IMG/VR virus record: IMGVR_UViG_3300047168_000120
Coordinates: 31,521 to 95,520 of that record
Source of the DNA: a virus
Reading direction: 5' to 3' (one strand)
Length of the DNA stretch: 64,000 nucleotides
Part shown: positions 14,461 to 31,905 of the stretch, piece after piece
Layout: the number at the start of each line of letters is the position of its first letter
How positions within the stretch are numbered: position 1 is the stretch's first letter
Notes under the pieces: model-generated
The model's database searches: none
Told to the model about the DNA's origin: nothing
Seen by the model: only the letters and a program-made list of their open reading frames with translations
Made by a program: the position numbers and the translations under genes

Positions 14461-14508
14461 ATCTAGCGCTTATGGTTTTAGGGTCTCAGGGAGCGCTGGG
14501 CGCTAGAT
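14461..14508. other. Inverted repeat between genes
   Basis: ATCTAGCG(C) at 14461-14469 pairs with (G)CGCTAGAT at 14500-14508, enclosing about 30 bp and touching the stop codon of the next leftward gene. A GC-rich palindromic run (about 14439-14460) precedes it. Could be a weak terminator or recombination scar. Confidence 0.4.
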
Positions 14509-14747
14509 TAGGCGGCGAGCTCGAAGCGGCGCTCCGCCGCGGCGCGGGCGGCATAGGTTTGCACGATCCCGTTTTGGTCTAGTGACGAGCCATCAAGATA
14601 GACGCGGACCCAAGCCCGGCCGTCTTCCGTCTCGAAAGTATCCCGGGTCGCCGGTTCATCGACAAGCATCTCCGGCGCTGCTTCACCAGCGACGTCGGGT
14701 GCCCAAATACCTGCGTTGTTGTCGCGAACGCACTGTGCGATGCACAC
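14508..14747 (-). CDS. Hypothetical acidic protein, 79 aa
   Basis: GTG start at 14747 (reads Met-Cys-Ile-Ala-Gln-Cys) chosen because CGGAG lies eight bases upstream; the frame is open to 14783, where a start would sit in an operator. Contains DTFETEDGRAWVRVYLDGSS. Family unknown. Likely controlled by the palindrome 14780-14795. Confidence 0.62.
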   Translation of the reverse strand: MCIAQCVRDNNAGIWAPDVAGEAAPEMLVDEPATRDTFETEDGRAWVRVYLDGSSLDQNGIVQTYAARAAAERRFELAA

Positions 14748-14779
14748 GGCTGAATCTCCGAATAATATTCTTCTGCGTA

Positions 14780-14795
14780 ACACATTTATGTGTGT
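14780..14795. promoter_or_regulatory. Operator-like palindrome
   Basis: Core ACACAT-TTAT-GTGTGT between a terminator and the leftward gene starting at 14747, so probably at that gene's promoter. Confidence 0.68.
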
Positions 14796-16474: not shown

Positions 16475-17032
16475 ATGGCGACAGAAACACATACCGCTGG
16501 AAGAATTCAATATCTCCCGCCGCGCGCGCCGAGTGAGCGCCAGAGCCTGCGGGAATTCGTCGACAAAATCGCTTCACGCTGCGAGACGCCGGAGGGCGCC
16601 GAAACGCTGGCGATGGAAGAATTGCTGCTCAAGCCAGACTTGGCGGATGAAGCCATGCGTCTTGGTCTGCGCCAGATGATCGGCGAAATGCGTACCAGGT
16701 TGCGGACTTCTATGGTGAAGGCCAGGCGGGGGGAATGGCGCGCGGAAAAAAATGCGCCGCGCGGCTTCGCCGGCGCCGCGGCGGCCCGGGCATCCTTCTA
16801 TAACTGGCCCCTACCGAATTCGGCGGTCGTTCTAGGCGATGCGACTGTCGCGGACCTAGAGGCCGCGGCGGCTTTCCATGATGTTCACCGGGACGCGCAC
16901 GCCAGCCGCGGGGGCGCCTACCGGCAGATCGCCGCGCTTCTGACGCGAGCCACCTCGAACCAAGATGTTCCGGTACGGAAAATCGTTGCCGAAGGCGAGT
17001 TGGCGCGCATTTTGGCTGGAACCCCCGCTTGA
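16475..17032 (+). CDS. Hypothetical phage protein, 185 aa
   Basis: Start MATETHTAGRIQYLPPRAPS directly after an operator and with no clear ribosome site. Helical, Ala/Arg-rich; contains MRTRLRTSMVKARRGEW. In the packaging region but no terminase motif is visible. The RNA stem-loop array begins 20 bp after its stop. Confidence 0.65.
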   Translation: MATETHTAGRIQYLPPRAPSERQSLREFVDKIASRCETPEGAETLAMEELLLKPDLADEAMRLGLRQMIGEMRTRLRTSMVKARRGEWRAEKNAPRGFAGAAAARASFYNWPLPNSAVVLGDATVADLEAAAAFHDVHRDAHASRGGAYRQIAALLTRATSNQDVPVRKIVAEGELARILAGTPA

Positions 17033-17051
17033 ATCCGGTCCAAAAGGCCGG

Positions 17052-17421
17052 GCTGCCGGCCGTTACGCGCTTGCTACCCAAAATGCCGGTGCCGGCAGCA
17101 AACCAACGCCGGCTTCGGCCGGCCCGCGCGGCCCGTTATAGTTTGCCATCCGATAGCAAGATGCCGCGCGGTTTAAATTCGGCCCGTTCTCATTCATTCC
17201 CGGCCTGTGTTTTAGTGATGCCCCAGGAGATCGAGCCGGGGGAATGCGAGGGGTCGAGCCTGCGGCCGAAAAGGGAGTGTTTTCCCCAAGCTGCAATGCC
17301 GCAGGTATTTTTCAGCTCAGCGGGCCATCAAATCGACGACAACCGCAGATGCCTTGCCACACTGCGCTGCGGGGGCGCGGCCAACACCCAGGCGCCTTCC
17401 ATCAGCATCGCGCCGCGCCCC
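17052..17421 (+). ncRNA. Stem-loop array I (6 units with 30-nt loops)
   Basis: Six units: 17052-17099, 17124-17171, 17195-17246, 17259-17305 (31-nt loop), 17318-17369 (interrupted stem) and 17372-17421. Arms of 8-10 nt are complementary within a unit but differ between units (for example GCTGCCGGC/GCCGGCAGC, GGGGCGCGGC/GCCGCGCCCC). Each loop begins with C and has G at position 13 and CC at 18-19, leaving 11 variable nt on each side of the core GN4CC. Units 1 and 2 are separated by a UUCG-capped hairpin (17108-17123). The last unit is followed by GTTTTTTT, so it may also terminate the transcript. No protein-like coding here. Confidence 0.8.
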
Positions 17422-17489
17422 GTTTTTTTCCCAGCCCAAGGATCCATGAAATGAACCCACCATACGATTCCGGCCTTGCGCCGGGTGAC

Positions 17490-18048
17490 GCCGCGGCCGG
17501 CCATGGTCTAATTGATAACCAGCAGAGCCCTGCAGGCCGCGGCAAACCTCTTCCGCCGCGGCGCTCCGGTGCCAAAGCGGTGCGCGGCCCGCGAAAAGGA
17601 GAAACCCAAAGGAGATCTGCCGCGCAGAATTCCGCATCAGATCCGACGCCCGATTCCGGCTCGCAACCCGCAATGAGAATGGCGCCGGATCTGGCTGCTG
17701 CCGGCCATAAACAATCTGAAGCCCCAGGGTTTCGCGCCGGCAGCAGCAAACCTATGTCTCCCGGTGCCAGGGTTGAAGCGAAATCCGATGGCTTACTGCG
17801 CCGGGACGACGAGGGTGCCGCCCAGCATTTACTTGCTCACCAACTAGCAGATGGCGGCGCCCCACCCATTAAGCGCCGCGGCCGCCCGCCCGGTGCCGCG
17901 AAATCCGCCAGAAATGGCGGCGAGGCCACCCCTCAAGAGCATGCAGCCCAAAATGGTCATGGCGGCCTCGAAGATTCCGGCGCCTGCGCCGGCGAGGAGG
18001 TTGGCCAAGATCATGACGAAAACCAATATCTAATAGCCGGCCTCCCCG
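17490..18048 (+). ncRNA. Stem-loop array II (8 units with 30-nt loops)
   Basis: Units at 17490-17543, 17581-17626, 17639-17692, 17694-17747, 17759-17806, 17814-17861, 17921-17970 and 17993-18048, all with exactly 30-nt loops obeying C1, G13, C18, C19; arms 8-13 bp. Mispairs in arms are G-U at 17765/17800, 17816/17859, 18001/18040 and 18002/18039, plus four single mismatches. A shorter irregular unit (17881-17921) and GAAA- or CCTG-capped hairpins (17906-17921, 17977-17992) lie between. An open reading frame from ATG 17451 runs through the whole array into the next gene, but its translation here is low-complexity and the RNA structure explains the sequence better. Confidence 0.8.
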
Positions 18049-18053
18049 AGCTT

Positions 18054-18914
18054 TTGACCGTCGATCGCGCTTCCCGCGCCCAGAAGCGCGCGCTTGCGGT
18101 GCGGATCGCCGCAATGGACCTGCCGACGGTGATTGACGGGCTGGTCAGCCTGCACCGAGAGCACCGGGCCTTGCAGCGCGCCGTGGGCGATATGACGCGG
18201 CGCATCAAGGCGGACGAGAAATGGGCGGCCCATGCGCGCCATGTACGCGATGGCATCGAAATCCCGGCGGGTAAGATGGCCGTCCCGAACGATGACGACG
18301 CAGCGTTCATCAAGACGCTGCGACACCGCCTTTATACGGGGCGTGCCGCTCTGGAGGCGCTGCGCAAGCAGGTGCAGGCCGAGCAGCTCATGCTGGTGAC
18401 CCGCCTGCCGGTCTATGACTGGGCACTTAGCATTCGTGGCTTCGGGCTGGCCAGCCTGGCGGCCATCGTGGGCGAAGCCGGCGATATAGGGAAATACGGC
18501 AATCCGGCGAAATTCTGGAAGCGGATGGGCTTGGCCGTGATCGACGGCGAGCGGCAGCGCAAGGTTGCCGGAAATCCCGAGCTTGCGGAGCGGCATGGCT
18601 TCCGGCCGCAGCGCCGCGCCGAGGTGCATGTGATCGGGGAAAACCTAATCCGGCAGAAAAGCCCCGGCTACTACGAGCTGTATGTCGCGCGCAAGGAATA
18701 CGAGCAGACCCGGCCGGACCCGGTGCCGTATTTGATCGTCGCGCACAAGCGGGCGCTTCGCTATGTCGAGAAGCGGCTGCTGAAGAAACTCTGGTCGGCC
18801 TGGCGCGTCGGTACGGGCGTCGCCGGCGCTGAGCCGGAGGGGGCTGAGACCGGAGTGTTGGTGATGCCCAATGAGGACTTGTCTCAGCCTCAACCAGAAA
18901 TGAGCCTGTCGTGA
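18054..18914 (+). CDS. IS110 C-terminal-domain / Tas-like RNA-associated protein
   Basis: About 286 aa if started at TTG 18054 (ATG 18114 is also possible; the frame is open from ATG 17451 through array II). A helical, coiled-coil-like region is followed by WALSIRGFGLASLAAIVGEA then GDIGKYGNPAKFWKRMGLAV, the pattern of the Transposase_20 domain of IS110 transposases (GxG helix-hairpin core, then GL). The DEDD RuvC-like domain of IS110 is absent and no SG catalytic serine motif follows, so it is not an active transposase. Nop-only Tas proteins (TasA) of phage TIGR systems have this kind of make-up. Flanked on both sides by stem-loop arrays, it probably binds their RNAs. Ends AHKRALRYVEKRLLKKLW... 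Confidence 0.72.
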   Translation: MTVDRASRAQKRALAVRIAAMDLPTVIDGLVSLHREHRALQRAVGDMTRRIKADEKWAAHARHVRDGIEIPAGKMAVPNDDDAAFIKTLRHRLYTGRAALEALRKQVQAEQLMLVTRLPVYDWALSIRGFGLASLAAIVGEAGDIGKYGNPAKFWKRMGLAVIDGERQRKVAGNPELAERHGFRPQRRAEVHVIGENLIRQKSPGYYELYVARKEYEQTRPDPVPYLIVAHKRALRYVEKRLLKKLWSAWRVGTGVAGAEPEGAETGVLVMPNEDLSQPQPEMSLS

Positions 18915-19331
18915 CCAAGACGATGCCGCCACCCCATGACAAGGCGTCGCGGCAGGCTCATCCCGGAGCGCCGGCCAAGGTAGCGGAGTTTTCCTCGTGT
19001 ACGCTGCCGGCGCTCCGAATCTTTTCGCTGCTCATGGCCAGCTTGGCGTCGAAGCCCTTTGAAGTTTTGCTGCGGGCGGTGATCGGGAACGCGGCCATTC
19101 AAGTCTTGCATCCCAAGACGCGGCTGCCGCGTTCCCACAATTTATCGTTTCCGTGGGCCCAAAATGATTTGCAACCCAGTCGGGTCGTGCCCATGGATTC
19201 GATAAATCAGGCGCTGGCCTTAAATCTATCGTGCCCCAAAAGTGCGAAGCTGGCGCCTGCCCCACCTCCGCGCCGGCATGCCCATGATAATTGGTTGCCC
19301 CGCAAGTCTCTGTGCGCCGGCGCGGAGGTGG
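18901..19331 (+). ncRNA. Stem-loop array III (7 units, 60-nt period)
   Basis: Units 18901-18960 (15-bp arms), 18965-19016 (11), 19025-19082 (14), 19085-19136 (11), 19140-19207 (19, with internal mismatches), 19208-19259 (11) and 19262-19331 (20). All loops are 30 nt with C1, G13, C18, C19. Loop centres are 57-63 nt apart, always a multiple of 3. Arm mispairs are almost all G-U (two in unit 1, five in unit 3, two in unit 6, two in unit 7) with one A-C in units 3 and 7. The first arm contains the stop codon of the upstream gene; the last arm contains the Shine-Dalgarno of the downstream gene. Confidence 0.85.
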
Positions 19332-19342
19332 CTTTCTGAATG
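19312..19342 (+). promoter_or_regulatory. Ribosome site sequestered in the last array stem
   Basis: The right arm of the final stem-loop reads GCCGGCGCGGAGGTGG; its GGAGGTGG is the only good Shine-Dalgarno for ATG 19340, eight bases away. When the 20-bp stem forms the site is paired, so processing or protein binding at the array could switch translation of the next gene. Confidence 0.6.
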
Positions 19343-19672
19343 TCCGGGCCAACCACCTCTCCTATCACGCCAAAGATGCGCGCCGACCGCGTGGAGCGCA
19401 CCGAGGCGGCCGCGGCGCGGGTAACGGAATGGGCGGTGCGTTTTGCTCGGAACCTGAACACGCAACCGACCTTCGATGAATCGGTGCAACAGGCTGCCAA
19501 CATTCTTGCGGCGATTCAACGCGAAAGAAAATTTAGGGGCGTTGCTGAGGGGAAGATCAGCGATGCGACCTATTTGAGCGAGCTGACGATGGCATCATGC
19601 TGCCTGGCGGCCGCCATGGCTCTGTTAATCCCCAAAAAAACACTGAAGGAACGCAAAAATGCGGCCCGATAA
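19340..19672 (+). CDS. Hypothetical protein, 110 aa
   Basis: Start MSGPTTSPITPKMRADRVER, one codon after the end of array III. Helical; VTEWAVRFARNLNTQPTFDE and a hydrophobic ASCCLAAAMALLIP stretch near the C-terminus. Its ribosome site lies in the last stem-loop of the array, linking its expression to that RNA. Overlaps the next gene by 14 nt. Family unknown. Confidence 0.7.
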   Translation: MSGPTTSPITPKMRADRVERTEAAAARVTEWAVRFARNLNTQPTFDESVQQAANILAAIQRERKFRGVAEGKISDATYLSELTMASCCLAAAMALLIPKKTLKERKNAAR

Positions 19673-20330
19673 AATCATTTTAGATGATCCGGAGTTTCGG
19701 GCGCCGGCGCCGACCCTGATCGTGGCCGGTCAAGGCAGATGCGGGACTTCCCTGGTCATGCAGATGCTGGCGCGGGCCGGCGTTGCCGTGACGGGTAACG
19801 CGCCCACGTACGAGGTTGTCCCGGAAGAGACGTCTCCTGCTTATTGGCGCGAGAATTTTGGCGGAAAAGCAATCAAAATCCTTGACCCGCATCTGAAGCG
19901 GCCGCCGTTCGGGCTGCAGTATCGCGCGATCTGGCTGGATCGGAACCTCGAGCAACAGGCGCTTTCACAGGTGAAGCTGCTGAAACAACTTGGATACGAC
20001 GTACTGACGGATCGCAGGGCGATCAAGCGGCTCGTTAAGCTCAATCGCAAGAACAGAAGTTACGCAGTCAACGTCCTAAGGAGTCTGGCGGGTCCGGAAA
20101 ACTGCATAGGCACCACATTCGAGCACCTGATCAATTCCCCGCACCTGGCGGCGAAACAGATCTACGAAAAATTCAAGGAATTTGTGCCTGAGCATCCCGG
20201 GAAATCAGATGCGGCCGTCATTCTTGAAATGGCTGCTGTGGTGAAGTTTCGGCATGCGGACTGCTACAACGGCCTGTTGGAGCTTGGATTGCCCGGCTTC
20301 AAGGAAAAAATTCTGGAGGCACAATCATGA
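19659..20330 (+). CDS. Sulfotransferase-like P-loop protein
   Basis: 223 aa. Residues about 19-34 read LIVAGQGRCGTSLVMQML, matching the 5'-phosphosulfate loop (GxxRSGTS) of the sulfotransferase family, followed by helix. Later motifs for 3'-phosphate binding are not obvious. If active it would transfer sulfate from PAPS to a cell-surface or other substrate; a phage might alter a surface receptor this way. Overlaps both neighbours, so it is in operon with the CtrA-like gene. Confidence 0.65.
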   Translation: MRPDKIILDDPEFRAPAPTLIVAGQGRCGTSLVMQMLARAGVAVTGNAPTYEVVPEETSPAYWRENFGGKAIKILDPHLKRPPFGLQYRAIWLDRNLEQQALSQVKLLKQLGYDVLTDRRAIKRLVKLNRKNRSYAVNVLRSLAGPENCIGTTFEHLINSPHLAAKQIYEKFKEFVPEHPGKSDAAVILEMAAVVKFRHADCYNGLLELGLPGFKEKILEAQS

Positions 20331-21061
20331 AATTTTTGCTGTTTGAACCGCCCGCCAATGTTCCTTCCGCGCAAACCGCGCTCAGCTTTGAAAAAGACGT
20401 TGTTGAAAGATGTACAGACGTTATCGATCTTGTCCACTTCGTTGAGACCTGGCCATATGATGCGATCATCCTGAACGTGCCGAACTTCCTGCCATACCAG
20501 GATCGATTCAAAAAGTTGGCGATATCTGGTGACCATGTCACCTTCGTTCTGAGCGATTTGCTGCCACAGGAAGAGCTTTTGGTGTTGCGCTCCGGCGGTA
20601 TTTATCTGAATCGGTACAACATGATTGAGGCTGGACGCGAGTTTCAATCGTTTATGCTTTTGACGGTCCGGAATATTGTGAATTTGCGTCGCAATGCCGT
20701 TCCATCGGTTAAGCATTTCGGCGCCGTGAAAATCGATTTCAATGCGCGCCGCGTATCGGTCAATGAAACCAAGATATGCTTTACCAAAAAAGAATATCTC
20801 ATCTTTGAAATGTTGTGCCTTCGCGCAGGCCGTGCGTTCAGTAAAGAGAACATCATCGATCAGATTTATGGAGCGCGCGAAGATGCGCCAGGTGCGAAGA
20901 TCGTGGACGTCTTTATCTGCAAAATCAGGAATAAGCTCGAAGAAGCGGGTGCTGGCAAAGTCATTCGGACGATCTGGGGCACCGGTTATATTATCGATTT
21001 ACCAGCGCCGGATGAGGTTGTGGCGGAAGAGTCGCCTCGTCTTCTAGCGGTGGCGACCTAA
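20327..21061 (+). CDS. CtrA-like response regulator with degenerate receiver
   Basis: 244 aa. The C-terminal OmpR/PhoB winged helix (residues about 130-228) is strikingly CtrA-like: CFTKKEYLIFEMLCLR, then KIVDVFICKIRNKLEEAG, then IRTIWGTGYII. The N-terminal receiver is present in length but its acidic pocket IEDD is FEPP, and the phospho-Asp position reads IILNVPN, so it cannot be phosphorylated normally. CtrA silences replication and drives cell-cycle genes in alphaproteobacteria; this copy may act constitutively on host or phage promoters. Start overlaps the upstream stop as ATGA. Confidence 0.85.
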   Translation: MKFLLFEPPANVPSAQTALSFEKDVVERCTDVIDLVHFVETWPYDAIILNVPNFLPYQDRFKKLAISGDHVTFVLSDLLPQEELLVLRSGGIYLNRYNMIEAGREFQSFMLLTVRNIVNLRRNAVPSVKHFGAVKIDFNARRVSVNETKICFTKKEYLIFEMLCLRAGRAFSKENIIDQIYGAREDAPGAKIVDVFICKIRNKLEEAGAGKVIRTIWGTGYIIDLPAPDEVVAEESPRLLAVAT

Positions 21062-31431: not shown

Positions 31432-31905
31432 ATGAAAACGTCACGTCGCCGCTATCTCATGGCCGCCGCCGCCTTTATGCCGACCGCCCTGGTTGCGGTG
31501 GGCTGCAGCAATACGTCCGCCACAATCCCGGCCAGCCTGGCGAATGCGCAGGCCGAGGCTAACGCCCTCCTGCAAGCCTTCACCGAGCTGGCGTCGTTCG
31601 TGCCCGGCACGCCGGCGATTTCATCGGCCCTGGCGATCGCCAAGGATGCCGTTTCCGTCTTCACCGCCATTCCCGCCGGTGGCTCATACCTGGCGGCCGC
31701 GAAGGACGTCATCGCCGCGCTAAGCCCGCTGATCGCCCTCATTCCTATGGGCGCGCCGACGCTGCTTGCTGTCAATGCCGGCATTGGGCTGATCACCGCG
31801 CTGCTCAACGGTGTGTCCGCCGTTCCCGCGCCGGGCGCCAGCCCATCACTCGGCGCGACCACGAATGTGATCGCAGCGCCAATCGCCATTCCGGTGATTT
31901 CGTAA
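31432..31905 (+). CDS. Tat-type lipoprotein, 157 aa
   Basis: Start MKTSRRRYLMAAAAFMPTAL at 31432 behind GGAGATTCCCC. The SRRRYLM twin-arginine motif plus hydrophobic core and a lipobox-like VAVGC (Cys near residue 25) predict a Tat-exported lipoprotein. The mature part is Ala/Pro-rich with hydrophobic helices (residues about 70-120). An exported lipoprotein on a phage suggests superinfection exclusion or a spanin-like role; not shown. Confidence 0.7.
   Translation: MKTSRRRYLMAAAAFMPTALVAVGCSNTSATIPASLANAQAEANALLQAFTELASFVPGTPAISSALAIAKDAVSVFTAIPAGGSYLAAAKDVIAALSPLIALIPMGAPTLLAVNAGIGLITALLNGVSAVPAPGASPSLGATTNVIAAPIAIPVIS

Follow-up and report, generated by a model that had tools for sequence, protein, structure and literature searches.

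A putative stem-loop TIGR-TasA system of a phage in which many guides appear to lie inside the effector's own coding sequence

Section 9 of Faure et al. 2025 (PMC12045711) describes stem-loop arrays accompanied by the protein TasA and reports that they are expressed and processed into single units, and TIGR guides have been reported with the same boxes and spacer length as the hairpins presented here. Current questions in the field concern what TasA does, what it targets, how guides mature, and how arrays grow. The locus that we have analyzed, in a 64,000-nucleotide (nt) stretch of virus DNA (the window, positions 31,521 to 95,520 of the 95,520-base record IMGVR_UViG_3300047168_000120), consists of three arrays of hairpins at 17052-19331, in and around a gene, tas, that encodes a Nop-domain protein. 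We estimate at about 85% the probability that the locus is a stem-loop TIGR-TasA system belonging to a phage of alphaproteobacteria, in which guides would be cut from the effector's own message and direct DNA binding without cutting. The host group is probably the alphaproteobacteria, since the closest relatives of the locus are found there.

As in stem-loop TIGR-Tas, tandem hairpins with variable palindromic arms adjoin the gene, with 9-nt spacers and the boxes CCA and YG, and the system is most likely of this type. It shares with the TIGR-TasA of Faure et al. 2025, from a Peromyscus gut contig, a Nop protein that lacks a nuclease, a division into three subarrays, and arms that are palindromic and variable; in both, each guide is a single hairpin whose two spacers lie between box C and box D. 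In contrast to that system as described there, the array between the start codon and the Nop domain lies in the tas frame, a conserved accessory gene is present 5' of tas, the loops are almost always exactly 30 nt, and position 9 of spacer A covaries with position 9 of spacer B (A9-B9), whereas Faure et al. saw no obvious A-B covariation. The nested units, the upstream conserved gene, and the A9-B9 covariation are absent from their main text. The sequence-only reading that preceded this analysis had raised the possibility of a new branch of these systems; section 9 of Faure et al. shows that the branch is not an unknown one. With TIGR-TasR and TIGR-TasH, which have dual-repeat arrays (PDB 9mty, 9vzx), the locus shares the CCA and UG boxes, the 9-nt spacers (TasR), and the Nop fold, and the A9-B9 signal fits their target geometry; unlike them, it has no RuvC or HNH domain, arms take the place of edge repeats, and the guides are hairpins. 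A literature search on tigRNA, TasA, and Nop-domain phage arrays, with subscription papers, preprints, and supplements outside its scope, returned just Faure et al. and papers mentioning it, and Rfam gave no match. CRISPR was considered and rejected, the arms being unit-specific with no constant repeat, and no PADLOC model matches the two proteins.

The array itself is confirmed. The + strand at 17052-19331 contains 22 hairpins in three groups that fit CC-N11-G-N4-CC-N11-G (Table 1), 20 of which have a perfect or nearly perfect stem of 8-20 nt, a C-G closing pair, and a 30-nt loop with C1, G13, and C18-C19. One further unit has a 31-nt loop, and another an interrupted stem, yet its loop (17326-17355) is also 30 nt, bringing such loops to 21 of 22. 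A Markov control with the same dinucleotide make-up yields 0.09 rule-fitting hairpins per 2400 nt, which disposes of chance. The loop and stem rule of the sequence-only reading is upheld; its array stands as well, while its count (21 units, 19 with 30-nt loops) needed correction. The region is unchanged in a second contig of 31.9 kb, where all 12,858 of the 12,858 fetched bases are identical.

Comparison with relatives, for which we gathered homologues of the gene from virus contigs and bacterial genomes (about 84 non-redundant loci), reveals units of the same geometry, on the same strand and adjoining the same gene, in most of these loci; arrays and homologous genes hence co-occur in dozens of relatives, as one would expect had the sequence-only reading recognized a true system. 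When 49 symmetric geometries were tested over the homologous loci, the 11-4-11 arrangement gave 483 matches, almost all of them on the Nop-gene strand, and the other 48 at most 37 each. A search for the motif only, with no pairing demanded (CCA-N9-YG-N4-CCA-N9-YG), found, in 566 kb, 334 matches on the strand that carries the gene and 4 on the opposite one (its "control" row was contaminated by arrays and was not used). The flanks of these matches, outside the search pattern, are 73-89% paired over eight positions, with all standard pair types. Since the flanks were not searched and yet pair, the unit rule is not circular.

The make-up of 415 distinct units from 63 loci defines the parts of a unit. 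Loop base 2 is A at a frequency of 0.79 and base 20 at 0.74, bases 12 and 30 are C or T in about 0.94, and bases 3-11 and 21-29 are nearly flat in composition. Judged by this composition, a unit is made up of CCA as box C, YG as box D, a pair of 9-nt spacers (loop bases 3-11 and 21-29), and a short A-rich loop. The two guide segments per RNA proposed by the sequence-only reading are thus retained, at 9 and not 11 nt, its invariant bases being those of box C and box D; free variation, which it had extended over positions 2-12 and 20-30, holds for 3-11 and 21-29. Some units have longer linkers, which can form a small hairpin of their own. Tandem copies (four of 183 nt in locus L023, and copies of 111 nt in L071) differ almost solely in the 9-nt windows between CCA and TG and in compensatory arm changes. 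Spacers turn over fast, since L099, an Acidocella metagenome-assembled genome with tas DNA 73% identical, has zero spacers in common with the window. The L023 copies (204-935) are in-frame repeats with three guide units apiece, two of the three unit types carrying the 8-nt linker TCTTCGGA (a UUCG tetraloop), and at 244-840 the arm pairs ATGAC/GTCAT and ATGGC/GCCAT alternate across copies, a compensatory change within one array. In another pair of units (L039:3762 and L047:3149), arm and spacer B are identical and spacer A is different, one guide half having been exchanged alone.

As for the protein, the AlphaFold2 model of its Nop part (18054-18911) has a predicted local distance difference test score (pLDDT) of 89 and a predicted template modeling score (pTM) of 0.82. 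Its best folds in the PDB, by Foldseek, are TasR (9mty) and TasH, which account for all of the top 11, followed by IS110 recombinases, and 9mty TasR is also matched in sequence (E=5e-9). The NCBIfam model TIGR_Tas_endo matches the window protein with E=1.3e-22 (80.8 bits), and 26 of 26 relatives tested match it as well. RuvC and HNH domains gave no Pfam match in the open frame 17244-18911 and no NCBIfam match in the 487-aa open reading frame (ORF). On account of the Tas folds and family model, together with the lack of a nuclease domain, we assign the protein as TasA, a predicted nuclease-less Nop protein. The sequence-only reading, which described a Tas/IS110-like Nop gene without nuclease and kinship with TIGR-Tas, is borne out by the family model, the fold comparison that it had proposed, and dozens of relatives. 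Its gene, 18054-18914, is too short, the most likely start, and the best supported by sequence, being ATG 17451.

Table 1. Coordinates of the features in the window
Feature	Position	Strand	Details
Accessory gene	16475..17032	+	185 aa, mostly helical; directly 5' of tas; iterated hidden Markov model (HMM)
ORF1, over array I	17029..17454	+	141 codons; TTG overlaps accessory stop; own stop overlaps tas ATG 17451
Array I, six units	17052..17421	+	17052-17099, 17124-17171, 17197-17242, 17258-17306 (31-nt loop), ~17318-17369 (interrupted stem), 17372-17421
tas (tasA) ORF	17451..18914	+	487 codons; ATG with AAGGA 8 nt upstream; N-terminal part over array II, C-terminal part is the Nop domain
Array II, eight units in tas frame	17490..18048	+	17490-17543, 17581-17626, 17637-17694, 17694-17747, 17759-17806, 17813-17862, 17921-17970, 17993-18048
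Coiled-coil and Nop/IS110 C-terminal-like domain of TasA	18054..18806	+	AlphaFold2 model; fold comparison
Array III, eight units	18840..19331	+	18840-18891, 18900-18961, 18964-19017, 19025-19082, 19085-19136, 19140-19207, 19208-19259, 19262-19331
ORF3, over array III	18911..19339	+	142 codons; GTG overlaps tas stop (GTGA); ends directly before ATG 19340
Candidate orphan unit	14461..14508	-	9-bp perfect stem, 30-nt loop, C1, G13, CC18-19

The sequence-only reading overlooked that array II sits in the tas reading frame. Over 17451-18053 this frame has no stop, versus 6 and 8 in the other two, and the ORF3 frame has no internal stop, versus 5 and 5. The frames of the window form a chain, from the accessory stop at 17032 to TTG 17029 of ORF1, ATG 17451 of tas, GTG 18911 of ORF3, and ATG 19340. 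The first unit of array III lies inside the 3' end of tas and the second spans its stop. L099 has an ORF at the same place as ORF1 (1009-1470), and in many loci the open tas frame extends far upstream. For the 30 non-redundant loci in which three or more contiguous units lie upstream, we counted stops between the first unit and the start of Nop homology. Per ~4270 codons, the tas frame has 24 and the other frames have 98 and 121 (Fisher 1e-17); the tas frame lacks any stop in 20 of the 30 loci, the other frames in 1 and 3. Within the units alone the counts are 18 versus 61 and 70. Often the first unit is closely preceded by a start codon that has a Shine-Dalgarno site. In 24 loci this tas start overlaps or adjoins the stop codon of the conserved gene before it, and every one of a locus's 2-11 units lies in the tas frame between that start and the Nop domain. 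Many guides, on this reading of the frames, appear to be written inside the effector's own coding sequence, which to our knowledge has not been reported before; searching the main text of Faure et al. 2025 by terms turned up nothing on arrays within reading frames. A different arrangement is seen in L067 (1135-2391), where an ORF of about 418 codons with 16 guide units is coupled to the accessory gene, apart from tas.

The two spacers of a unit covary at one pair of positions. A9 and B9 are complementary in 216 of 496 units (43.5%; z 9.9), the same across loci, and theirs is the sole outlier among 81 spacer-position pairs; within-locus shuffling gives a mean of 133 (standard deviation 9) and reached 216 in 0 of 20000 trials. 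Because 8-nt 3' overhangs have been published for TIGR target cleavage, the target would read spacer A followed by the reverse complement of spacer B, with A9 and B9 meeting at the centre. This suggests that in part of the targets one base pair is common to both spacers, which would explain the signal; the two bases might instead touch directly in the RNA, which we consider less likely, since each lies beside a different box D. The signal further suggests that a single duplex site is the source of both halves, or the site on which both are selected, sometimes with one shared central base pair, and the complementarity provides a search rule for natural targets.

We envisage that the accessory gene, tas, and the three arrays are transcribed as one RNA, from which each of the 22 hairpins would be cut out to give one guide RNA with two 9-nt spacers, as literature on relatives suggests. 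A TasA dimer would hold both box pairs, and the ribonucleoprotein would, by analogy with relatives, bind double-stranded DNA, spacer A on one strand and spacer B on the other. Because it has no nuclease, TasA most likely bends and blocks its target, affecting transcription or replication, and does not cut it. Translation would run through the arrays. With array II in the tas coding sequence and arrays I and III under overlapping ORFs, one RNA would be both message and guide precursor, and guide excision, by ending translation, would build feedback on TasA into the system. We put at slightly better than even the odds that this represents a class of phage RNA-guided systems with an array inside the effector coding sequence, where guide release and effector synthesis compete on one RNA and a conserved accessory protein is translated just before. 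If so, nested guides would couple guide supply to effector synthesis and limit how spacers change.

Several results weigh against these readings. The NCBIfam score of the protein is below the curated cut-off of 100 bits, in Rhizobium-type loci (L007, L009, L080, and L105) the arrays lie outside the tas frame, downstream arrays are without frame bias when all loci are taken together, and nested arrays may already be noted in the supplements of Faure et al. 2025. No self-target with two or fewer mismatches was found in the 95.5-kb record, and 1.33 Mb of tas-bearing phage DNA searched with 496 units in four orientations and nine spacings gave background only, with an excess at one-base overlap (49 versus 17-29 mispaired) that is due to the A9-B9 covariation. 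In nine carrier genomes no unit matched as an abutting 18-mer, while planted 18-mer controls were recovered, and 200 Acidocella-family genomes gave one 18/18 match, about chance level, at a site common to two closely related genomes, in a GAF-domain-like gene. The genome searches covered spacer pairs matched exactly and without a gap and, for the window and L099 alone, also 17-mers in which the two spacers have one base in common. Searching related phages and hosts with the spacers, as the sequence-only reading advised, hence gave no target above background, and says little about targets outside the DNA covered.

Given the Rhizobium-type loci, nesting is best seen as a feature of part of the family. 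They also bear on the strongest alternative, that this is the same TIGR-TasA with ordinary untranslated guides, open frames that result from GC-rich sequence, and a tas gene that starts at the Nop domain. Few stops are indeed found in GC-rich DNA, some relatives have arrays in no long frame, and the downstream arrays lack tas-frame bias. We nevertheless hold this explanation to be improbable, because the bias favors the tas frame alone, neither of the other frames of this DNA sharing it, the Shine-Dalgarno starts 5' of the first unit overlap the accessory stop, and the tandem periods of 183 and 111 nt are multiples of three; moreover, the window and L099 have between units a common peptide, PLPPRRxxAKAVRG, maintained partly via synonymous changes.

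A more doubtful alternative is a ribonucleoprotein that is directed to RNA, like the archaeal and eukaryotic box C/D small nucleolar ribonucleoprotein (snoRNP), which shares with the locus a Nop domain and two guides between box C and D pairs. This box C/D-like logic and the failure to find a DNA target fit such a role. However, TasR does not cleave RNA, the A9-B9 complementarity is in keeping with two spacers that each read a different strand of a single duplex, and no methylase was identified among the neighboring genes scanned; differently from the snoRNP, there is no L7Ae k-turn and no fibrillarin seen, and the guides are 9 nt. Finally, a degenerate IS110 element whose hairpins are bridge-RNA remnants of a transposase without its DEDD domain can be dismissed as very improbable: the PHROG label of the protein (transposase), a weak Pfam match to Transposase_20, and the IS110 folds that come next best speak for it, and the locus shares with IS110 (IS621; 8wt6) a Nop-like RNA-binding domain and two guides in RNA loops, but the DEDD transposase domain (PF01548) has no match in the whole record, no mobile element is seen, Tas matches better than IS110 in both sequence and fold, each locus has many units with independent spacers, and the operon is conserved in dozens of phages.

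Of 84 non-redundant loci, 63 have the accessory gene 5' of tas and in the same orientation, as determined with an iterated HMM begun from five proteins, and L084 has the ORF downstream instead. Its protein, which may have a role in the system and is a candidate for guide maturation or spacer exchange, did not significantly match any entry of Pfam, PHROG, NCBIfam, PADLOC, or the PDB; the helical model is not reliable overall (pTM 0.40), and a fold search with it gave nothing usable. Faure et al. 2025 mention a ParB-like partner of tas; the accessory protein showed no similarity to ParB. A terminase-linked role, suggested by the terminase genes near tas in the window, was rejected, as a related terminase is near tas in few relatives. 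One phage contig (L182) has a large terminase 66% identical and no units in the 21 kb covered. The minus-strand hairpin of Table 1, which may be an orphan guide or chance, immediately follows the stop codon of an ORF on the same strand (14508-14783). In the window, phage genes that resemble a sulfotransferase-like protein and an OmpR-type DNA-binding domain (19659-20330 and 20327-21061) lie between tas and the gene for the large terminase.
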